From NCBI RefSeq assembly GCF_025024155.1, contig NW_026251720.1, positions 186,001 through 250,000 on the forward strand: 64,000 bases of DNA, given 5' to 3'. Below the pieces are notes generated by a model that did not search any database, was not told the origin of the DNA, and was given only the letters and a program-made list of their open reading frames with translations. Below, one piece after another: positions 36,289 to 60,346 of the stretch (positions are counted from its first letter, which is position 1; every line of letters starts with the position of its first letter). Position numbers and translations under genes: made by a program. This DNA is from Gamsiella multidivaricata (taxonomy: Eukaryota > Mortierellomycota > Mortierellomycetes > Mortierellales > Mortierellaceae).

Positions 36289-37968
36289 ATGTCTCCTCAG
36301 CAGGAGCCGAATATTCGGGAGCTGACCCTCAGCGTCGACCTGTCTATCGCTGCACTTCCCCAAACACCCTCAACAACGCACCCGAACAACGCAATCGCGA
36401 CCAGTGGAGCCGTGCAGTCCAAGCCTGATTTATCCTACTGGAATGTCACTATGAGGCGCATGTCCAATTTGTTGGTGGTCGGCATTCGTTGGTTCCCTGG
36501 TCAAACCGCCGAGGGTATAGAGGAGTTCAGACGAATGTATGTCATCCCACGAATGAACCGAGGTGCGTTCACGTTCGTGCCTATTCGGAATGGTGCCTTG
36601 TTAGCAGAGCATACTATTCAAGGTAACGATCAAGCAGATTTTTCTTTTTTCTTTTATTTATTTATTTATTGGCTTTACTGGACATGCAAAGAAAATGCAA
36701 TACCCAGAAGATTGGCCTGAGAAATTTGAACATTGAAAAAATGACTAGCAATGATCTGTGAGAACAAAGTCCGTGGCGAGACCAAATTCATCTTCGACAT
36801 CGTCCTCTCGACGATCGATGTAACCATTGGCCCAGTCCTCACCCCGTCTCTGAACTGCCATAATCCTGCCTTCATGCTCTCCCTCCTCCAGAACCAAGAC
36901 GCCTCTAACGTGGACCTGATCTTGAAAGTACCCACAGAGCAATACTCCTCTTTCGCAATGGTCTCCGCCAACCGAGAGATCCTCTCGCGCCACAGAGTTT
37001 GGAAGACAATGATCGACAGCTCCGTCAGAAGGAGGACCGCGACTATTTATATGAGGGAGAGGTTCCCGCCGAATGAGACTTTTCATGTCAGGAGCGTGGT
37101 GCGGTCGGGAAACAGAATGATCCCGGCGACCATGGAGATTGCCAAGGACGCGAATGGGGCCAACAATTCCGTTTCTGATGTTGAGATGGAGCTTGTAAAA
37201 GGTGGCGATGATCTTGTCGGCTCCTGCTTGGACCTCTTGTCGCGACTCGCTTTCACCTCAGCCCCGATCGCTCCTGCTCCTACTGCTGCAGCTCCTGTAA
37301 CTGCCGCCGGTACGGGCACGGATCTTTTGACCAGGTACAACGGTAAATATGGGTTCAACAGAGTCAATCTTGAGGCCCACAAGGATTGCTCACTTCAAGC
37401 ACTCTGCACTGTACTCTGGTACATGTACACGGGTGGGATCCATCGACGCGTCGATCCTGCCGATTTTATTATCACGACCTTTGATCTACGCACATCACCA
37501 GTGCTCCCACAGACACAGCGGCCGCAAGGTCAGACAAGCCAATGGTATGACATCCGTCGATGGGATAGTCGTACACGCTACCGATTCGAATGCCCAGAGG
37601 TTCTTTGGCCGGATCTACTCATTGCCGCGAGTTGGTTTGGGCTCGAGGACCTGAAGGCGTATTGTGAGAAGAAGGTCCTGATGACCTTGGACGGAGATAA
37701 TGTTGGGGATATATTATTTAAGTTTGGAAGCGCGTCCGAGAAAGTGAAGGAAGGGGCGTTGGAGTATCTGAAAGAACACATACCAGAGTTTACGGCGTGG
37801 GCCTGTGATCCTTTAAGGGAGTACGCGAAGCATCCGGAGTACTGGAAAGTGGTGGATGAGGTCTGGAGAAGGTGGGGTGCTGAGCAGGAGAAGGAGAAGG
37901 TAAAGGATGAGCTTGAGGAGGATGAGCTGGAGAAGAAGATGGAGGAGGGGGACGACCTTTATAGTTGA
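36289..37968 (+). CDS. BTB/POZ-like domain protein, copy 2
   Basis: The exons are 36289-36622 and 36749-37968 (517 residues). It shares the architecture of copy 1: an N-terminal beta-rich part, then NPAFMLSLLQNQDASNVDLILKVPTEQYSSFAMVSANREIL (compare copy 1), a variable Ala/Pro/Thr insert, and CSLQALCTVLWYMYTGGIHRRVDPADFIITTFDL, matching CSLSTLCVVLWFAYTGHIERWVDPARFLITTYD in copy 1. The phase 1 intron is in the same relative place. The tail is Glu/Lys-rich and disordered. The two genes are clearly duplicates that have diverged strongly. ATG 36289 was chosen because upstream in-frame codons only translate an AC repeat. AATAAA lies at 38070-38075. Confidence 0.72.
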
Positions 37969-38337: not shown

Positions 38338-41034
38338 CTACAGTATTCCTTCCATGCGTGTGTGTGCGTGTGTGTGTGTGTGGGGGGGGGAGGTTTCAGC
38401 AAGGGAAAAGTTTGGGAACTGATTTAATTGGGCGCCGAGGCCCAAAAACGGGGCCCAATTCACCGGGTCTCCCCGACTCCTATTTCCCTCTGACTTCGTC
38501 ATATTTCGAAATTCCAGAACAGCGAAATGCAGCGCCTCCGCAACTTGCCTTCCGTCGATGTGGCCTCCTTGAACCGTCCTCCCAAGTATCTCATAGAACC
38601 TTTCTACCACTGCAAGTGCAGCACCTTGCTCTACAAACCACGTCGACCCCACCACGTTCGAAAAGCCAGTATGCCGCACCGAACTGGCCAAGTGGATGCT
38701 TTCGTCTTGCTGGTTTTCGACGCCTCCGTTCGCTGTGAAGCATACGGAGAGAAAGACTAAGCGAGATCCCGAATGCGGCTTGGAAGGCCTGGAGTTGAGA
38801 GCTTGGAGGCAGGCTGTGGTGAGGGGATCGGTTTCCCAGTCTGAAGTAAGCAGCAGGCTCTGTGTGGGGAAGTTATAGTCGACGAGCCCGTGGCAGGAGA
38901 AGTGAACGATCTCGGGCTGAGTTGCCAATGCAGACAAGACGTCCTGAGTTGTTGAACCAGTAAGGATTTGAGAGGACGGGAACACTGTCGTTATTGCCGC
39001 CACCTCCTCCGGAGACTGTTTCAGAGATCCTTGCTCCGGTGTCTCTGGCATGGAAAAGACCAAGGCAATTGGATTTCCCGGGCCAGACGCGTGATCATTC
39101 CCAAGCTGTTTCGTTGCCTCGCCCAGCCTCTCCTTCCGCTGCTTGATGTGGTAGAGGCTAGACAGGCTAGTTGCATATGTTGAGATGACCCTGTCCATTG
39201 TGTTTGAAGTCTTGTGGAGGCCCAGACCAGCTGCGTGAATGGGGTAGAGACACAAAACGCCGGTGGGTATCCAGCGGACGTGTGGCTACTCTTGTCGTGA
39301 TGCCGGTGAAGATGTGTAGCCCAAGAAATCCATCACCGGTTGCACAAGGTTCTTCCACAAATCGCGAAGAAATTCTGTCAGCAGCCTGTGCAGTTCGGGA
39401 AAGACGTCTTCTTGGCCCGATTCCTTTGCCAATCGAGCTTGAATCTCCCAGCTCTTCTCCGAAAGGGCATCCTCATCCAGGTTCGGAAGGTGAACATTGT
39501 GAATTGAACGTCGGCGTATGATGATGGCATCACTCCGCAGATCTGTGATGTTAACCACGACAATATCCTCCTTCTCAGCTAGAGATATCATCTCCTCAAA
39601 ACTCAGGTCCCTCGGAGGACGGAAGGCACCGGGCATAGCAAACAGCTCCTTACGTGCCTCCGAAATAATTCCATACGGCTCTCTTCTTTCATGGTACGGG
39701 GCATTTTTGAAGCGATTGTTCTTCAGCGCTTGCAGTGCATCAATATAGCGTCTTGCAAGGTCAGGAGTCACATCCGCGAGAGCTCGCTTGTCCACGCTCT
39801 CTTCCTGAAGAATTGCATTGGCGATTCCCCGGCCCTTCTCGAGAATCTGAAGGGCTGCGAAGGGACTTCTATGCAGATGCAAGTGTGCCGCTGCTGCATA
39901 CCTGCTGATTCCGTAAAAGGAGCTCAGGTTATTCTTTCGATCCTCTTCGGAGGCCACCATGCAAAGCTGTTCGAGGTTGTAAACGCTTCGGTCAAGACAT
40001 ATACTGGACCTTCCGAGAATACTGTCCCTGAATTCATGAAGGAAGTTCTTGATATCCAAAACAAAAGCTAGGGTGTTGGTGGGAGCCGAAAGCAGCGTTG
40101 CCCCTGGGATGATGGTTGATTCAGCGAGGAGATCAACTGCCTGGTCAAGGAGGTGTTGTCCGCTAGGTACGTCCACCTTCTGCGGGAGGGAGCCATCGCT
40201 GACATAGCAGAGGTAGGCCGTCTGTAAGCGGAACGAGAGGTTGCTCAATACCGTCACCAGTGCGTCGGAGGTGTTTGATTCTGAACTTAGACTTCTCGTC
40301 ATGTCGACTACTTCCCAGCCGAGTTGTAAGGACCGATCAAGGTCACTGTACTCTCTTTTGTCATCCCCTTGTTCCCATCGAAGCTGATAGCCCATCCCTA
40401 GATCGCTCTTGGTTGCGATTAAGATTTCACCTGTGAGACTACTGTCGGCCGCGACATCGGCAGCCTCCTGCGCAGCAGCCATCATCTTTTCGAAATCCTC
40501 ATCCGTAGCCTCGTCCAGCTGGTGGACCTTTGTGAACAGGCAGTGCCAAAGGTTTCCAAGCGCCCGAACTAAGGCCTCGATCGTGGCGCCCTCTTTCAGC
40601 AACTTTCGAGTCAAATCTGTCGACTTTTCGGCCCAGTCAATGGCATTCTCGAGGTCCGTCTTATTCCTGCCACGCATATACCGAGCTTGGAGGCATTTCG
40701 AGTAGATCACCGCCAAGCGGGCGTAGTCGACATCATCCTCAATCGCCTCGAGTGCCTCCCCCAGGTATTTTAAGGCGTCCTCTAGGGACTGCCAGTCATT
40801 CACAGCGTGGAACTGGTCGTAACACCGCGATGCAAGATGTTCCAGGGATTCGTTGCGTTCAGGCCCTGGTTCGAGGCAGTAGGCTAACATCAGTTTCGCG
40901 GCTTGCATCACCTGTGAACGAGAAACTTGGTGGTCGTCGGATTTGGATGCTCCCTCGAGGAGCTCAAGCATCGTCCTGAGGATATTCGCTGCGCTGCTAT
41001 AGATTTTTCCAAGCATGCTCTTCAGTGCGTCCAT
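38338..41034 (-). pseudogene. TPR-CHAT caspase-like protease, interrupted by one in-frame TAG
   Basis: CHAT proteases are caspase-like cysteine proteases. From ATG 41034 the frame runs 582 codons of helical TPR-like repeats (for example DLENAIDWAEKSTDLTRKLL), then meets TAG at 39286-39288. The same frame then stays open for 315 codons to 38338. That part begins RWIPTGVLCLYPIHAAG, the usual CHAT entry, and contains HFSCHGLVD (catalytic His near 38890-38892), LVFLSVCFTA (catalytic Cys near 38740-38742) and DESIHLASSVRHTGFSNVVGSTW. The sequence just before the stop, LVQPVMDFLGYT, is also expected family sequence. A 51-nt intron (39286-39336) ending in that TAG is possible but would remove it and has a weak GTGATG donor. 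The C-terminus HTHTHAHT is coded by a GT microsatellite. It is divergent from a gasdermin-like gene 598 bp away. The type "pseudogene" is provisional; readthrough, a small intron or sequence error are alternatives. Confidence 0.8.
38356..38391. repeat. (GT)n microsatellite with a G-run
   Basis: GT dinucleotides with GC interruptions followed by nine or so Gs. On the minus strand it encodes the His/Thr tail of the CHAT protein. Confidence 0.9.
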
Positions 41035-41632
41035 GTTGAGAACCCAGGCAGAAGACCTTTTCCAAGCAAGGCATGGGGGTGGAGTAAGAGAGGAATCAAG
41101 TGCAGGCAGGGTGTCAAGGCAAGCAGAAGTGTATATTCAAGTTTCTAGGTACCGGTCTATGAGGGATGTGTGGGGAATGGTGTAGCCAAGCAGGATCTTG
41201 GCAAGCATCAACCAACTGTGCCCAGAGGCAAAGCCGGGCTGTACAGAGGCAGGGGAATGGCTATGCAGTGATGATGCAGAGTCGTGGAACGCGACAGCCC
41301 AGAGATATGGGTTTATTCGATGCATTACCATTCGAATTATCTGAGACAGTTTCCCAGTCGCTGTCATCTTGTACGTCTGTCATCTTGTACGTCTGTCATC
41401 TTGGAAAGAAAGGCTATAACCAGTTTATCCAAGAAAATTGCGAATGACAACTAAAGGCATCGAGATATCGAGAAACCTGTCATATGCTCATGGCTATGTT
41501 CGTAGCACAAAGATGCAATGAAATGGGAAATGTGTTACCCCCCAGCTGGTCGCATGCACCCGCAATAGACGAGGTTCTCGGCGTTTCTCACAACTTGCCT
41601 GCCTTCTTTATTTCTCCTGCAATCCACGAACA
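41035..41632. promoter_or_regulatory. Shared upstream region of the TPR-CHAT and gasdermin-like genes
   Basis: The 598 bp between the divergent start codons holds no supported gene. A 16-bp tandem repeat lies at 41361-41403. No clear TATA box was found on either side. A head-to-head arrangement with one control region would allow co-expression (inference). Confidence 0.5.
41361..41403. repeat. 16-bp tandem repeat, about 2.7 units
   Basis: The unit CTGTCATCTTGTACGT is repeated twice and followed by a partial CTGTCATCTTG. It sits about in the middle of the intergenic region between the protease and the gasdermin-like gene. Confidence 0.9.
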
Positions 41633-42424
41633 ATGGTAGCTCCCGACAGTGTCCTCCTGCCCAAGCTCTTCCCAAAAAACCTCGTTTCCATCGGCCAACT
41701 TCTCCGCAACCCTCTTGTCCCCAACACTGACACATTCAGAGGCGGCTGTGCTCGGGTGGGTGAAAACGATATCAGCACCGCGGACCCGGAAGAGAACTAT
41801 GAAGCCATCGTCTCGGTGGACATGAGCGGCTGGTTCGACATCGGACTGACAAGGCTCCTGGGCGCTAAACTCAGAGGCCGCAGAGCCAACATGCTTTCCA
41901 TCAGGGCCAAATCACTCGAGTACAATACCTTGAAGGACTCGGTGGATGTGTTCCGCCGCGTCTTCAGCTCCGATGAGGCCAAAAGGTGGATCAACGACAT
42001 GGTGTTGCATAAAGCGCCTTGCTACCTTGTCATCGGGATCCAGACTCTCTGTATGGCCGAGTTCAAGAGAGTGGTGCTTAAAGAAGGTGTTGCAGGCGGA
42101 TATGTCACCGTGCCGTTGGAAGCAACTGCACAAATCCCTGTGCACGTTAAAGGCGAGGTATCTGCTCACCATTTTGGTAGTTCGGTGGGCAAGAAGGTGT
42201 CGGGGGTATTTGGAATCCAAGTGCAGCGTCTTAATCCACAGATTGGGCTACCGGGTGAAATAAGACTAAAGTCGGACGTCTCGTGGAAGTGGTCGTATCA
42301 GAGAATCAAGGGAACTCAACAGGAGGAAGAGAAACGGCTCGGCATCACGCTGGAAGACGTGGCAGTGGAGGACCTTGTTGAGCTGCTGCGCTTGGACGCT
42401 GAGGATGATGAAGAGGACGAATGA
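41633..42424 (+). CDS. Gasdermin-like protein (fungal RCD-1/HET-Q1 type), candidate
   Basis: This single-exon gene of 263 residues falls in the size range of fungal gasdermins, pore-forming proteins of regulated cell death that are activated by removal of a short C-terminal tail. The N-terminus VLLPKLFPKNLVSIGQLLRN is amphipathic. Later come APCYLVIGIQTLCMAEFKRV (about residues 128-147), alternating beta-strand patterns and KKVSGVFGIQVQRL (about 187-200), which recall the order of the gasdermin pore domain: LYxVTG-like strand, long hairpins, then a hydrophobic strand before the tail. The last 60 residues are charged, ending in a run of Asp/Glu (DAEDDEEDE). Similarity alone is weak; the main support is the neighbouring divergent TPR-CHAT protease, a known partner type. 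Nothing in this frame is broken. Alternative: an unrelated lineage-specific protein. Confidence 0.6.
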   Translation: MVAPDSVLLPKLFPKNLVSIGQLLRNPLVPNTDTFRGGCARVGENDISTADPEENYEAIVSVDMSGWFDIGLTRLLGAKLRGRRANMLSIRAKSLEYNTLKDSVDVFRRVFSSDEAKRWINDMVLHKAPCYLVIGIQTLCMAEFKRVVLKEGVAGGYVTVPLEATAQIPVHVKGEVSAHHFGSSVGKKVSGVFGIQVQRLNPQIGLPGEIRLKSDVSWKWSYQRIKGTQQEEEKRLGITLEDVAVEDLVELLRLDAEDDEEDE

Positions 42425-50772: not shown

Positions 50773-53700
50773 ATGGAACAGAGGAAACGCTCTTCGAAAT
50801 ACAGCATTCTACGGGACACAGGGCTTGTGCTGCTGCTGCTTACTTCATTCATCGCCCCATCCACCCTTACTCAAGCAGCATCCACATCTGCCTTTATAAC
50901 AGGCCATGACCAATCAACACATACTAGCGCAGCCTCATCTGAGAACATCATCCGATCCATCGGCTTTCGCAACTGTGTCCCAAACGTGTCTTCAGGCTCC
51001 GACTCTACAGGCGAAGATAACAGCAGTGCTATCAGGCTTTCGAGCTTGGCTTTGTTGTATGACGGGGAGTTCAACACGATCTCTATGAGGGCTGAGGGTT
51101 CTACAGACCGCGAATTTGATGCAACTGCAGGTAACTCGACACAAGTCCAAAGTTTTAAACGCGTTCGATCTCCTAGGGATTCTCGTAGGCAGGAAGAGGA
51201 TAGCTTTATGAACTTACTTGCATGCTTCCTTCTCACCATGGAATAGCACGCGTGTTGTTGACGGCGTACGATCGCGTCTTTTACGATCAAAAGATCGACT
51301 TTGCCAAGATTGCATTTTTTATTCCACGGTAAGCAACATGTTATGTCGCCTATGATGTTTACTGCCAATTGTCATGCACGACCAAGGTGCTAATCATTCT
51401 TTCTTCATAGGTTCAAAGGAAAGTTCTCCTTCCAAGAGACGTTCCCAGCTCCAAGTTTGCTTCCAGAGCAACTCCCCAAGCAGCTATTTTCGCTTCCTGC
51501 AGTCGAAGCACTAGCCTCGATCCAGCTCTACGACTCCCAGGGCAACCCTATCCTTTGCACGTCCGTACCTCTCATCAACGCTGTCAGTGCCCATTCACCA
51601 GTCATCACCGTCGCCTCAGTCTCTTTGACCGCAGCGGCTATTGCCCTCACTGCCGTCTCTAATATTTTAGCTGCCTTGACATCTGCAGCCGTGTTGACTT
51701 CCATGCCCCTGGCAGCAGCCGGAGGCGGTATGGGGGATGCGAACCCTTCTAATGGACTCTCTCCGTCGGTGTGGGATGTGGTCTCGTTCTGTCAGTTCAT
51801 TTCCATGTCAGGATCACTGAACTTGGAGTACCCAGAATTGCTGAAGCAATGGGCACAGAATTTTGCTTGGAGCATGGGCCTTGTGCCTTCTGAAAGCTGG
51901 AACCGTGCGATCAATGGGCTTAGATTGAGGACCTCGTCTGAAGATTCAAACAACGATGAAGCACATGAAGTTTTAATGTTCAGCAAGACTCATTTACCTC
52001 CAGCAGAGAGGATCCTGTACAGCGGCAACGTCAACGGCACTTCAATAAAGGGCAAAGCGACGAACACCACTGCAACTGCTGGCGCGCATGGCAATGAGAC
52101 TGTAACAGCGCTTTCGATGCAGTCGGTCATGGATGGTGCTGTCAAATCCTTCGTCGAAAAGGCAGGCTACAACCCCAGTACTACACAAGCAGCAGCAACC
52201 GCCATCGCCCGCCGCGAGCCCTCTCGAAGCATGTCATCTTCAGCAGTCTTTTCAGCTGGCGCGCAACAACTTAATCGACGTCAGACAGCTCCTGCTGTTG
52301 CGCCCGGCAAGGGCCTGCTACCTTCACCAGCAGACAGCTCTCTCATGAACAGGATCGGTGATCTCCCCAATCTCAAAGCCATGAGCGCGTCATTAACTCC
52401 GACAATGTCTCCACAGCTCACTCCGCCAGCATCCTGGCCTGGGGGGGAATATCATACATCCACTGGCTCATTGACCCAACACGGCTTGACTTCGTTCGGC
52501 GAGAGTCTCGACATCCCAGCCAAGAACATGTTTATGACCTCTTTATTCCTCTTCCTAATATTGCTATTGGCAACCTCGCTTCTAGCCCTGGTCCTTCGGA
52601 TCGCACTTGAGGGATACGCGTATGTACGTCCTGGGAAGTTCACAAAGTTTCGTCGACGTTTCAGCTCATATTACCTCGGCAACATGCTTCGAGTTGTCTT
52701 GCTTGCATATTTTGCGGTCGCGACTATGGCCTTTCACCAGCTTACATTCAAGGACTCATGGCCCATCACCATGTTGGCGGCCATGACTCTGCTGCTCTTC
52801 CTCGCGCTAGTCATCTACATCACTCTCCGACTTCGTCGTGCAGGCGGTACCAGTCTCTTCTTTGACGAACGACTCAAGTCCAAGTATGGTGCGCTCTACG
52901 ATCAATACGTCCTTTCGGCCTACTGGTTCTTTGTCCCTGTGTTGGTTTACCAGATCCTGAAAGCCGCTATCGTGGGACTAGGGCAAGGGCGTGATGACGA
53001 TAATAACATGCATCACCGTGGGTCCTCGGATGGTTGGGCACAAACCAGTTTGTTACTCATGGTCGAGGTGTCTTTTGCAGCACTAATGATCTGGAAGAAG
53101 CCGTTTGCGGACAAGACACCGAACCGTCTGAATGGCATCCTAGGCTGTGTACGAGTCCTGAACGTGGTCTTGCTGGCGGCCTTGATCGAGGGAACGACTG
53201 TCTCGACGGTTTCCAGAACCGTGGTTGGCGTGATCATCACTGGCACACAGGCATTGATGATACTGGTTCTTGCGATTTTAGTCCTTTATCAGCTCGGAAG
53301 AGCTCTCTGGCGACTCTGGTCGATCGTGAAGGCTAAAAAGGATAAGAACCGTAAGAAAAACAAAAACAGAGACCCCCTAGACTACGGAGAGATGCTCGTG
53401 GTCTCGGTCAAGGACGACAAAACGTTTGATGGGGACCATGAGGATGGTGAGCCAACTGGTAGGACGGCAAGCGAACGCTCTAGGCCAGGCGACGAGAGCA
53501 TGACGAGCCTTGTGGGTATGATGGGTATTGGATCCAACCCCACGATCCGGTGCACGCCTGCGAGCGATGACGAGGACGGAGACTTTATTCACAGTGATTA
53601 TGAAAAGGATGTGATTCCGGGCCGGTACCAAAAGCGAGATCCAGGAGTTTCCATGCCAGCTATAAACAACAATGGTAAACCGTTTGAAGGTGTTCAGGAA

Positions 53701-55281
53701 TCGATCCGGGATTCGACCCAAAGTACGGATAGCCAGTCATCGTTTATTCTCGACTACTATAACCTATCCTACCTCCCAGTCAGCATTCGGTCTAAAGTCC
53801 TGAAGGAGCAGCAGAGCAGACAAGAGCCGGCCGAGAGGAATGAAGAAAATGCGGATGGGTTCAACGTTGATCCAGAAATCGCACTACGCCAAGACGGGTT
53901 TACAGTTTCTAGTCTAGTTCCCACAGAGCCATGGGTTCAGTCCGCATACATGACGCGTCGTAGCAGCGAGTCCAACATGTATCGAGGCCGTAAGGTTAAG
54001 GTCCCCTCGCCACGCCAGGACAACGATGATAGCGATAATGACAGCGATGACGATTATATGAGCGAGCTGCGGCAGCAACGGTATCGTCGGCGACCCATGT
54101 CACTGGGAATGTCTGTTCAGGGTCTTGGTCCCATAACATTCAGCAAGTCTGAGAGCAGATCTCAACGAGGGGACTCACTACCAAGACGCGCTGCTAGGCC
54201 GGAGTTATTCCCGTCCTTCAGAGGCACCTATATTCCAGACAGTCTTCTAGCAGGACCACCTCCACCGTCGGCGATGGGACCAAGACGGGGCTCCATCTCT
54301 TCTGCGACGCTGGTCACCCCACCATCTATGTCACCTGTGCTTGCTAGCCCTTCAGATGTCGACGCCCAGGGAACTTCCTCTCTTGCTTCACTTGAATTGG
54401 ATACCACTATATCTGTGCAGTTGCCAGTACCAGTGTCAGCTGCAGCTCCAACCTTAACGGGCTCATCTTCCTCAGCAAGCTTTCGCGGCTTTGAAGAGTA
54501 CCGCTTCCCAGATGAAGGGTTTGGTCGTACGACACAGCAAAGACTAGCAGATCAACGCGCGGTTCACCCACTCTCGCCTTTGCACCCAGACTACCAGCAC
54601 CCGGATGATCTCTACGACGCCAAAATGCCCTCGCCTAACGAGGACGGTCCAACAATGTCATTCAAGTACGTCAATGTCCCGAATGCGCCCCAGGACGGCT
54701 ACAACTCTCGCCGCCAGAGGCAATCACTGGAGGATGATACAGTAAATGCTCCGCAGAGGAGGCTGACGGTTCCATCGACTCCTACGAGGAATATTGGCTT
54801 CACGGTGTTGCAGACTATGAGGCGGCCGATTCCGCCGCTAAGGATTGTCACGACTCCCAAGGCTGTGGTCCCTCCACCACAAATCGCGATCCCAACCTTA
54901 CCTTTGACACCATTCTCGGCTAGTCTGACGAATGCTGTCGATGCAGTTGGTACCGCCGCTACTGAAGGTGCAGGAGAAGGGCGAGCTCAAAAGTTCCACC
55001 ATGAGCAGCTTACGCCCGTGTCATCTGTTTGCTCGAACGCGTCCTTGAAGGAGAGTAAGACCCTCACATTGGATCAAGAACCAAACATTGGGGGTGCTAT
55101 GACAGTAGGGGGCCGAAAGCGAAGCTACTCGAATCTAGTCAAGCGTTCTTTGGCAGAGTCGCCTCGTTTGGGTGGGTCTTCGCCTAGCAGACAGCGTGCG
55201 TTGTCAACAACGCGCTTGCCCGTGCCAATCAGGCCCTTGACGACCTCGAGCGCCCACCGCGATGCGCGTGCTGCTCGCTGA
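50773..55281 (+). CDS. TRP-like ion channel with ML-like domain (Flc/Pkd2 type)
   Basis: The exons are 50773-51130, 51247-51328 and 51411-55281 (1436 residues). A signal peptide (LVLLLLTSFIAPSTLTQA) is followed by a lumenal/extracellular region with IRSIGFRNCVPN and later SFQETFPAPSLLP, as in the ML-like domain of fungal TRP proteins. Membrane segments include PVITVASVSLTAAAIALTAVSNILAAL, FMTSLFLFLILLLATSLLALVL, MLRVVLLAYFAVATMAFHQL, MLAAMTLLLFLALVIYITL and others up to LMILVLAILVLYQLGRAL. A hydrophilic, Ser/Pro/Asp-rich cytosolic tail of about 650 residues follows. Family members work in calcium signalling, flavin carrier or cell wall integrity processes; which applies here is not shown. The convergent SHQ1 gene ends 136 bp away. 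Confidence 0.85.
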
Positions 55282-55417: not shown

Positions 55418-58010
55418 TTAGAGCTCAATGATCATGGGCTTCGGTCCGTCTTGTATAAAAATGCTCTCTTCTTCATCGATACGCACACTCCCTTCTTTTG
55501 CCTTGTTAGGATTTTTCTCATCGTCATCCTCGTGGCTGTCTTCGCCTTCGCTACTGCTGTCATCCTCATCCGTAGATTCGTCGTCGCTGGAAGTATCGTC
55601 CTCGTCGTCACTCTCCTCCTCAGACGACTCCTCTTCCTCTTCTTCTTCATCCTCCATATCCGGAGCTTCCTTAGCCAAGGCCTCCAGTCCCTCAAGATGC
55701 CAACCCAGGTCCGCTTTTTCAATCTTAAAATGATGCAATTCATGGGCCAACGTCCTGATCACATTCTCGCTCGAACTCTGGATCCAGACACAATAGTCCT
55801 CAATAAACATCTTGCTGTAGATATAGTACACATCGTCATGGTCCAGCACTTCTTTGATTGCCAACAGTACTCGGAGGATGCCTCTCCGACCCAGCTTGAG
55901 GATCACGTAGACATCCTGGAGGATTTTGAGCGACAGGCTCCAGTTGCGGACGAGTGGGTAGGCGAGTGCGCGACGGAAGCAGGCAAAGATAGTCTCTTTA
56001 AGAGTTGTGAACTGATCAAGCGCGGAGATGGTTGGGGAGAGTTTACAGATTGTCCAGGCGGTTTCGACGGTGGCGTCGCCCTCGGAGACGCGAAGATCGT
56101 AGCTGTATGCGAAGAGGATGTCGATTAAGCCCAAATACGTTGATTTCGTATTCTCCAAGATGTCTATGTGAAAAGGAAAGCGAAAATGCTTGTTAGCAAG
56201 AAAGTTCCATTCAAAGTGCATTTTTTTTTTTTTGCGCAATAACTCTTCGAATGTTAGAAAAGTTGGCTGCTTGACTTACATTCTCTACGAGGAAGATCCC
56301 GCATCAGTTCCTGCTCCTTTGCAGAGAAGGGCTTGACACCGGCAGAAGAATCGCCCGCTGCAAGACTCAGCCCTGCCATGTTGTCTTCCAATTCGTTGTT
56401 GAGGGAGGGGCGTGATGGGTCCACGATCGCAATAGCTTCGGGTCCAAGATACTTAACCGGTTCGCTCTCATCGATCAGGGGTTCTTCTAATGGGATCAAA
56501 GTGGCTGTGGAAGGTGCTGATGTGGGTTCCAGGTCAAGAATCAAGGGTTTACTGGCGCCGGACTCTGTATTTTTGCTTGATAAAGCTTTGGTTGAAATCT
56601 CTTTCAGTCCAAATGAGTCCTGATCCACTGGAGAAGCGGTGTCGGCGGCAACATCCTTGACGATATTAAAGATTGAAGGCGTAGTTGATGACGATGTATG
56701 TGAAGAAAGGAGCGTCGATTTGAAGGTTGTTGTGGTAGCGGGTATGGGTGATGGAGTGCTCTCCTGATTCCTATTTGATGTCGATAATGAGGTGTCCAGC
56801 TTCGTCTTCTTGCTTGAAGCATCTATTTGATATGCAAATCGACAGGTAGACAACCACTGTGTTAGAAATCAATACATCGCTACCCTTGACAAGCTAAATT
56901 TTTCCAGAATAGCAGACGGGATTTCATAATACCTTTCTCTGCTTTCTGAATCGCGCGCAGCTCGTTCCACCATGGGGTCTTGTACTTCAACAAATGCTGG
57001 ATTTCTTCCTCCGTCATAAAGTCGCTCCTACAGGTTGTCGACAATACAAAATGTCAGAAGATGGTCTATGCAACCAACTGGTTCAAAGCATCCGTTTTGA
57101 TTTGTACACCTACATATAATACTCGTCATCAAACTTGTCGTTCTCTCGCTGGATTCTGTTCTGTCGCCTCGTCTCCAGTGTAGCATGCTCAGGATCGTAC
57201 ACATCCAGAACATCGTTGGGAGTCTCTTGGACGTGCGTGAAGAAGCCAGAATACCGGTTGTTGAATCCATATCGCACTTCAGAAAAGATCTGTCCGGTAC
57301 ACCACAGCAATTCAGTCGGAACATTAGCGACCCAATGCAATGGCCAATGGTGCCCCTTTCAACTGCCCCGTCATCTGATTCTGCTTACCTCTTGTCGGAT
57401 CTCCTGAGGCATCTCCCAATCAAAATTCTCATCTATTTCCAGCTTCTGCGTTCCCTCCAGTGTATCTCCACTGCTAATAACCTCGATCAGGGGTCGTTTG
57501 ATCTGCTTTTCTGCCAGGTCGCCCTTTCGAACAAGTAGCTTCGTTAACATGTCGAGGTCGGGAAAGTGCTCGCCAGGTGATTCCTTGGGAAGTATGACTG
57601 TCAGCTCGCCAGCCCCAACATTGTAAGTTGCCTTCGCACGCTCATCGTCCACGACATTTCCTGGGAAGGTCAGTCTATCGTTGTCCATTCAACACCGTGG
57701 GATAGTTGTTAGATCAAGTGGTCCTGAAGGATCGAGACCGGCAAATGAGCGATAGCTACCATTTGTCTACTAACCTAAGAAAATATGGCTTCAAGTTGAA
57801 CTTGAAGACCGGACCGTCGACCTCAAAGTCTACGTTTTGTGTCTAGTAAGGAGTACACAAAGAGAAAAAGTGAGTGCCAGAGAACAAGAAGAATATGACA
57901 AAGACACTTCGAAGTGAGACTGAAGTGCATCGGACCTTGATGTGCGGTGCCGTGATGACAATGGTGACAGAATCATCATCCTGTGAAACTGTGAACGTTG
58001 GGGTGATCAT
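55418..58010 (-). CDS. SHQ1: H/ACA snoRNP assembly factor SHQ1
   Basis: SHQ1 chaperones dyskerin/Cbf5 before H/ACA RNP assembly. The seven exons are 57936-58010, 57775-57842, 57389-57674, 57114-57289, 56933-57027, 56280-56822 and 55418-56163 (662 residues). The N-terminal CS-like domain begins MITPTFTVSQDDDSVTIVITAPHIK and goes on with VDFEVDGPVFKFNLKPYFLRL. The SHQ1-specific domain has YGFNNRYSGFF, KYKTPWWNELRAIQKAE, REYILENTKSTYLGLIDILFAYSYDLR and ESAWTICKLSP-like ETAWTICKLSPTISAL. The C-terminal 80 residues are almost entirely Glu/Asp/Ser. An insert of about 180 residues in exon 6 (Ser/Thr-rich) is a fungal-type linker. Confidence 0.93.
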
Positions 58011-58249: not shown

Positions 58250-60013
58250 CTACTGCCGCTCATCCTTAAACTCAGAGTATTCGCGAATGCGACGCACTCT
58301 TCTGCGCTTCATCTCCTGATATGTGCCCACCAAGCTAGCCAGATCCTTGATCACCACAAACAGACATCCACCTAGGATGTTACGATGGAAGTTGTCTGGA
58401 ATACGCGTCCGCACAAATGAAAAATGGCCCAGGAAGCTATGCAAAACAGAAAAACAATAAAATTCGCATTAATAAGGCGCATCGTATCACAATACGGTGT
58501 TTACGAGACACTACATCAACCCTTCATCAACCGTACCTTCCGCAGATCGAAGAGATGGCCGGCATAAGAAGTGCGCCTACTATGGTCCTTCCCAGATCCC
58601 TCCTGTCAAAGAAAGAAAGCTCCTCTTCTACATTTGCCCCTGCTTGCGCTTGTGCTGCCGCTGCCACTGTCGTCAACGTATCCGCGTCCGAGCTGTCTAT
58701 GCTGGCATTCATCCCGAGTCTCGCCACTCCAGAGCCTGCAATCTGCTGATGGCGCCATCGCGTCTCCAGACGTGTCACCATCTCAGTCCAGAGGCTGTTG
58801 TATGCCATCCTGATCCAGGGCATGACAGAAAGAGTCAGGGCAGGACTCGGTGGGAAGGTGACCTGCAGCTGGTCGTTACCGACAATTAAAAGTGGAATCA
58901 TCGGCAGGAACGAGTCAATTAACTTTGTTCTGGAAAAGATGAGGATCACCGGGATGAGTGGGAGACCAGTCTAGAGATACGGACCGGATACATAGTCAGA
59001 CACATAAGTCATGTAATAAAGTAGTATGCCTTTCTTTCTTATAATGGTTGAATTCATTACCCAGACACGCCAGCTCCAAGGGTTTGGGCTTCCCAATAGT
59101 TTTTCGCCCTCCTCTGTGCCGCAAATGGTCAAGACTGCATAAGCTCTAAATGAGGCCAAAGCATAAAAGCTGCACTACATCAGTAATTGGTCAAAGAGCA
59201 GCAGCACAAAAAGACGCGTGGATTCGTATTCATGCAACTGCAAAGAAACTTACCCATAAGTGGTACTTGTGATCAAAACAGAGCACGTCAACCCCAGGAA
59301 TGTCAAGTAAGGAATGCCTGCGTGGACTAGCGAGTCAAAGGTTGAGTAGATATTCAGGAGTAGCGAGCTCGGCTCCGCCAATCTATAGACCGTGTTGCAC
59401 ACGGAGCATCGGACCTACGAGGCACAATAAAACAGAGGTGTAAGGCTTGTCAGTACAAGTGCATTTAGTATCCGGAGCATCGATGCCCTTGGTGCTAATG
59501 CATCCTAATGGGGTTTCCTCGTACTTGCTTCTTTGCAAATTGCTGGCGGTTCTTGTCGATCCAGTCCAGGAGACAATCTTCGTGTGAGATAAGAGTACAC
59601 TGGCAGGGCTTAACCCACCGTCCCACACTGTCCTCCTCTGTGCCAAAGCAGATGTAGCATCGGTTTGGTTCCTGGTAAACGGGTGATGGTCCTGAGGCAG
59701 GAGGTGTGGTTGAAGCAGAAGCCGATCCTGCTTGAAAAGAGGGTGCCTGTTGCTGTTGCAGTTGTTGCGGTTGTTGTTTCGAACGAGACGAGATGGTTTC
59801 CAGTTCCTTCAAGAAGGTAGCGACGCCAGTGTCAGCACTGCTCGAGTCTGCTTGTCCGTGTGAATGCCTTCTGCTGCTGGTACCACTGGTGGTGCCGGTA
59901 TGGCTGTTGCTGCTGGTGTTCCCAAGAGAGCTGGTCGACTGTCTTGAAGCATGTACGCTCGCAAGTGCGGCTGCTCGCTGGACTGAGGAAGTTCCTGCTG
60001 GGGCGGGCTCCAT
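58250..60013 (-). CDS. MARCHF5: RING-CH (MARCH5-like) membrane E3 ubiquitin ligase
   Basis: The exons are 59525-60013, 59254-59414, 59061-59145, 58537-58970 and 58250-58436 (451 residues). The RING-CH finger is split by an intron: CYICFG and CQCTLISHEDCLLDW in exon 1, CSVCNTVY in exon 2, giving the C4HC3 order. Several hydrophobic stretches follow (IPYLTFLGLTCSVLITSTTYGAYAVL, LIPVILIFSRTKLIDSFLPMIPLLIVG, GRTIVGALLMPAISSICGSFLGH), matching the four-pass layout of MARCH5, which sits in the mitochondrial outer membrane in animals and controls mitochondrial dynamics. Location here is inferred. The N-terminal 100 residues are Ser/Thr/Gln-rich. Upstream in-frame ATG 60199 is possible but poorly conserved-looking. 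It diverges from OST5 with 333 bp between. Confidence 0.87.
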
Positions 60014-60346
60014 TGCGTGCTTGTTTGCTTGGCCTCGGATAACGCGTGTTGTTGTTTGCGAATGATTTCCTGGGAATGGGGAATGCGATTGTTTGAGGAT
60101 GAAAAATGAATGTGATAATGAGCCTTGCGGGGAAGGATGTTCTATGGGGCTGCTTTCTGCTCGTTGAAAAGAGGGAGGGCGAGTGAAAAGTGGAAGCAAA
60201 GGGGAACAGCAAACCCCCCAGTAATTCTCAGTGGACGCGCCCCGTAATTGTTCAACCGCTGTGAGGGATCATCCTGCTTCACGAACTCCACCTTTGCATC
60301 ATCACATCCCCTGTACTCCATCTACACCCCATTCTGACAATATACC
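60014..60346. promoter_or_regulatory. Divergent promoter region of the MARCH5-like and OST5 genes
   Basis: 333 bp between two start codons on opposite strands. No clear TATA box; promoter role inferred from position. Confidence 0.5.

Follow-up and report, generated by a model that had tools for sequence, protein, structure and literature searches.

We analysed a 64,000-nt stretch of the genome of the fungus Gamsiella multidivaricata (Mortierellomycota), hereafter the window, in which a gasdermin gene and a TPR-CHAT protease gene lie head to head, and found that this pair is real and of a published kind. Our preferred reading, to which we give a probability of about 0.78, is a two-gene fungal gasdermin/TPR-CHAT cell-death cluster whose protease was lost by a nonsense change while the gasdermin stayed intact, so that an intact gasdermin probably stands beside a sensor without its protease. 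The original prediction for this locus, made from sequence alone, had proposed a gasdermin/protease cell-death module; the pair itself stands, carried by predicted fold, CHAT domain and adjacency, but the protease is not intact, its frame being broken by an in-frame TAG (Table 1). Because of that TAG, we class the locus as a gasdermin-protease cluster with an interrupted protease and not as a working cluster. An undamaged version of such a cluster would be expected to work as follows: its TPR solenoid detects a signal, its CHAT cysteine protease clips a short acidic tail from the C terminus of the gasdermin, and the gasdermin thus released assembles into oligomeric membrane pores that kill the hyphal compartment.

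Table 1. Features of the divergent gene pair, in window coordinates.
Feature	Positions	Strand	Details and basis
Intact fungal-gasdermin open reading frame	41633..42424	+	263 residues, intron not required; open reading frame, AlphaFold2 model, PDB fold matches
Candidate inhibitory, removable acidic tail	42299..42421	+	last 41 residues (223-263, ~4.8 kDa); length, mass, charge
Common upstream region	41035..41632	.	598 bp, flanked by the start codons of both genes
16-bp direct repeat	41361-41403		2.7 perfect copies, within the common upstream region
TPR-like solenoid, then three strands and two helices directly before the CHAT Pfam region	39289..41034	-	582 residues, ends at the stop
In-frame TAG between TPR part and CHAT domain	39286..39288	-	open reading frame list; BGZ54_000728 ends at the identical residue
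CHAT frame past the stop	38338..39285	-	315 codons, Pfam domain residues 2-284; PF12770
Codon of expected catalytic His, H132 of CHAT piece (SCHG)	38890..38892	-	invariant in 7/7 rows; aligns with CHG of 7zoq
Codon of expected catalytic Cys, C182 of CHAT piece (SVCFTA)	38740..38742	-	invariant in 7/7 rows; aligns with Cys of 7zoq

A gasdermin fold and a CHAT domain in divergent genes

The start codons of the two genes are 598 bp apart, which places the protease gene within the 10 kb used to call a cluster, and their positions bear out the 263-codon plus-strand open reading frame (ORF), the intergenic region and the divergent orientation that had been proposed. Scans of the whole genome (37.48 Mb in 180 contigs), in which the best candidates were scored and introns ignored, returned a single match to the gasdermin protein and a single match to CHAT, both inside the window, and found no further CHAT gene or gasdermin. 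The listed G. multidivaricata protein BC939DRAFT_442345 (P0001, 256 residues) is 100% identical to the window gasdermin over 97% coverage.

Evaluated by sequence profile, the gasdermin assignment drew no match, as no Pfam family matched the 263-residue protein and searches with profiles A1 and A5 retrieved no PDB chain at E values up to 10; evaluated by structure, it was supported. Examined for a fold unlike the gasdermin N-domain, the AlphaFold2 model (predicted local distance difference test, pLDDT, 70.8; predicted template modelling score, pTM, 0.73) came out as a gasdermin, its best matches in the PDB being Neurospora crassa RCD-1 (8JYX, 8JYY, 8JYZ), followed by other gasdermins, which together fill the first 20 rows. 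That the protein is instead another pore-former (MACPF/CDC-like) or an unrelated beta protein is very improbable, with the three RCD-1 entries outscoring the top CDC/MACPF row by 3.9 to 5.4 Z units. In place of a large inhibitory domain the protein carries a short tail of 41 residues past the conserved W218..Y222, charged as predicted (13 acidic and 1 basic among its last 26 residues), and most full-length relatives likewise have an acidic end. By analogy with HET-Q1, a protein of 278 residues that loses 40 of them, or ~5 kDa (PMC10989679; here and below, papers are cited from excerpts), this tail is a candidate inhibitory element whose cleavage may permit pore formation.

On the minus strand, the TPR-CHAT frame runs from the ATG at 41034 down to 38338 and is made of two adjoining ORFs that share one reading frame (39286-41136 and 38338-39285). 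The first holds TPR-type helical repeats and the second a CHAT domain that lies far above chance (Pfam E 1.9e-29, 103.4 bits against a cut-off of 24; E 0.0024 against PDB entry 7zoq, a TPR-CHAT protein). Both motifs named in the original prediction, HFSCHG and LSVCFTA, are present, and the DNA encodes the conserved His and Cys, although the stop cuts CHAT off. The domains of the proposed TPR-CHAT protease were correctly recognised, but the single open frame was not there, the TAG having been overlooked. The CHAT frame extends ~30 residues beyond the end of its relatives, an extension that has no counterpart in them and passes through a GT repeat.

An in-frame stop severs CHAT from its sensor

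As it stands, the protease gene does not encode a full-length enzyme. A spacing of 22 residues separates LGY from WIPTG both in the window and in five of the six relatives covering this part (the sixth has 19), which shows that nothing was inserted at the stop. A first scan for an intron removing the stop (GTR donors near it, 40-150 nt) produced just two candidates, both weak; each uses the AG of the stop itself as its end and would delete a conserved stretch. A wider scan (40-400 nt) found GTRNG donors in 0 of 66 frame-keeping GT-AG pairs, that is, no splice route.

Several observations nevertheless weigh against a lost protease and in favour of a pair that still functions, the stop being bypassed by read-through, re-initiation or an unusual intron, which would yield CHAT protease either at full length or as a separate protein. 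The CHAT frame is open through 284 domain codons (chance ~1e-5 by base composition), against 7 and 6 stops in the other two frames of that strand; both expected catalytic residues are retained; and compared with the metagenome relative P0027 the CHAT piece is 83% identical versus 63% for the TPR piece, such that CHAT conservation is not lower than TPR conservation. An open frame thus conserved implies either that the stop is recent or that CHAT is still used, and a recent stop accounts for the open frame equally well. Bypass appears unlikely to us given the intron scans and the position of the first Met past the stop, at residue 30, beyond the invariant PxxxWIPTG and LxLYPxHA residues.

No more probable is an alternative in which an allorecognition locus has reached a derived state by losing its protease, with the intact gasdermin awaiting a protease from a fusing strain. 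Here the published ‘pseudogenization’ model derives het-Q1/het-Q2 from partial loss of a pre-existing sensor/protease/gasdermin pathway and locates a constitutively active sensor/protease in the partner strain (PMC10197012), and we infer that the present combination, a whole gasdermin gene next to a broken protease gene, resembles that route. The gasdermin frame is intact, and the annotated proteins of Mortierella alpina (P0029) and Mortierella sp. AD031 (P0028) likewise break off short of CHAT, at similar positions, which is a hint from annotation, the AD031 entry being marked partial. These ends may, however, be annotation artefacts, both listed G. multidivaricata records end at the same stop, and the constitutively active partner that the model needs is not known here. 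The final residues of P0029 look like the CHAT region read out of frame (compare window ORF 39167-39472).

Less probable again is that the stop arose as an artefact of sequencing, assembly or strain in a species that normally has an intact protease. Just one codon is affected, and relatives with CHAT and TPR part in one frame do exist (P0026, P0027, P0030, P0031, P0032, P0033), but BGZ54_000728, a 572-residue G. multidivaricata protein from a different locus-tag series, terminates at the same residue. Its listed contig size is 10,095, against 526,184 for the gasdermin, and it is 98.282% identical to the window TPR piece over 582 columns; except for one 10-residue gap the two match letter for letter, as checked over the 282 N-terminal and 280 C-terminal residues. 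The locus is a natural case of an executioner left intact while its protease is severed from its sensor, and this state renders one model of allorecognition gene origin testable in this fungus, outside the usual ascomycete models.

Recurrence of the pair in relatives

A single-sequence search at E<=0.01 recovered 24 gasdermin relatives, and a profile search recovered 41, namely the same 24 and 17 new ones, among the best 8000 candidates scored. Besides Gamsiella, the named ones belong to Linnemannia gamsii, M. alpina, Mortierella sp. AD031, Mortierella sp. GBA35, Podila minutissima, Thozetella sp., Penicillium samsonianum and Glarea lozoyensis. Identity across phyla is 55-60%, which we judge remarkable for a death gene. 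For the TPR part, 10 relatives were found at E<=1e-5 (again the best 8000 candidates), and CHAT was matched in 6 of the 11 rows of set A3, where the window is represented by its TPR piece alone. One of these, the 893-residue metagenome protein P0027, has a Crinkler N-terminal domain (PF20147) ahead of its TPR part.

To judge adjacency we relied on identical listed contig sizes, with clusters represented by their longest contig and divergent orientation known for the window alone. Among the 10 protease relatives, four share a contig size with a gasdermin relative (out of 39 gasdermin rows with a listed size), these being L. gamsii, M. alpina, Mortierella sp. AD031 and one metagenome pair, with consecutive locus tags as well in M. 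alpina and AD031. The remaining six, including Linnemannia exigua and BGZ54_000728, have no listed gasdermin partner. In prokaryotic contigs (genome_contigs) and viral_contigs, 47 and 51 pattern matches to the gasdermin family, respectively, yielded 0 relatives by tblastn at the sensitivity used, which distinguishes this family from bacterial gasdermin systems.

Ancestry of the gasdermin

We evaluated ancestry in a 30-row and a 13-row gasdermin tree, most rows being metagenome proteins without an assigned phylum; P0001, which is the window protein, and the shorter or partial P0021-P0024, P0039, P0041, P0042 and P0048-P0051 were left out of the larger one. In the 30-row tree, five named Mortierellaceae rows and two unnamed ones fall together with support of 100/99, and this seven-row clade is joined by Thozetella and a further unnamed row (96/99). 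In the 13-row tree the branching order is not settled. Glarea is an ascomycete by taxonomy lookup, and so are Thozetella and Penicillium. Horizontal transfer from Ascomycota is possible but unproven. It is a suggestion that the tests do not support, since neither constraining the three named ascomycete rows together (13-row tree; approximately unbiased test, p-AU 0.299) nor constraining the 18 other ingroup rows together (30-row tree; p-AU 0.183) was rejected. We regard as unlikely a broader scenario in which a pyroptosis-like gasdermin/CHAT cassette crossed between Ascomycota and Mortierellomycota and is now being dismantled in Mortierellaceae, CHAT having been lost by the stop and the loaded gasdermin kept; if true, this early-branching fungal phylum would have in the locus an allorecognition determinant in the making.

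Relation to known systems

About 80% of fungal gasdermins have a protease gene clustered with them, a CHAT protease in ~17-19% of cases, and such pairs are described as widespread or more abundant in Ascomycota (PMC10197012, PMC10989679). With the present locus, the range of gasdermin/caspase-like protease pairs, so far reported chiefly from that group, comes to include Mortierellomycota, a phylum outside Dikarya. Neither Mortierellomycota members nor an interrupted protease was found in the literature searched, though Clave 2022 and Daskalov 2019/2020 may hold earlier notice, and the excerpts of PMC9815663 and PMC10197012 report no such gasdermin in Mortierella/Mucoromycota.

Compared with the fungal gasdermin/TPR-CHAT two-gene clusters (Clave et al. 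2022, as excerpted in reviews), the window has the same gene pair and the same two domains, but its protease frame is interrupted and its host belongs to Mortierellomycota. RCD-1 resembles the window protein in predicted fold, in size class and in having no large C-terminal domain after its single pore-forming domain, whereas identity is ~14-16%, without sequence-level detection, and RCD-1 acts through pairing of allelic variants and not proteolysis (PMC12881547, PMC10197012). The HET-Q1/HET-Q2 system of Podospora anserina offers a gasdermin of similar size with a short removable tail (PMC10989679; a candidate tail here) and, as we infer for the window, lacks a functional partner protease gene next to that gasdermin, but the neighbour in the window is an interrupted TPR-CHAT gene. 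Bacterial Craspase (Csx29) shares the order TPR then CHAT and the aligned His and Cys; it differs, in the excerpts available, as part of a CRISPR effector with another substrate, and the sequence match is confined to the CHAT part. A predicted CHAT domain also occurs in the gene that forms one allele of hetB, a heterokaryon-incompatibility locus of Aspergillus fumigatus (PMC11138114).

Neighbouring genes

Beyond the pair, a 407-residue ORF at 36745-37968 (+) matched no Pfam family above the cut-off, and by eye it looks BTB/POZ-like. The other neighbours are regarded as ordinary from their matches, namely a TRP channel at 51397-55281 (+), SHQ1 at 55418-56272 (-) and a RING-variant protein at 59495-60265 (-).
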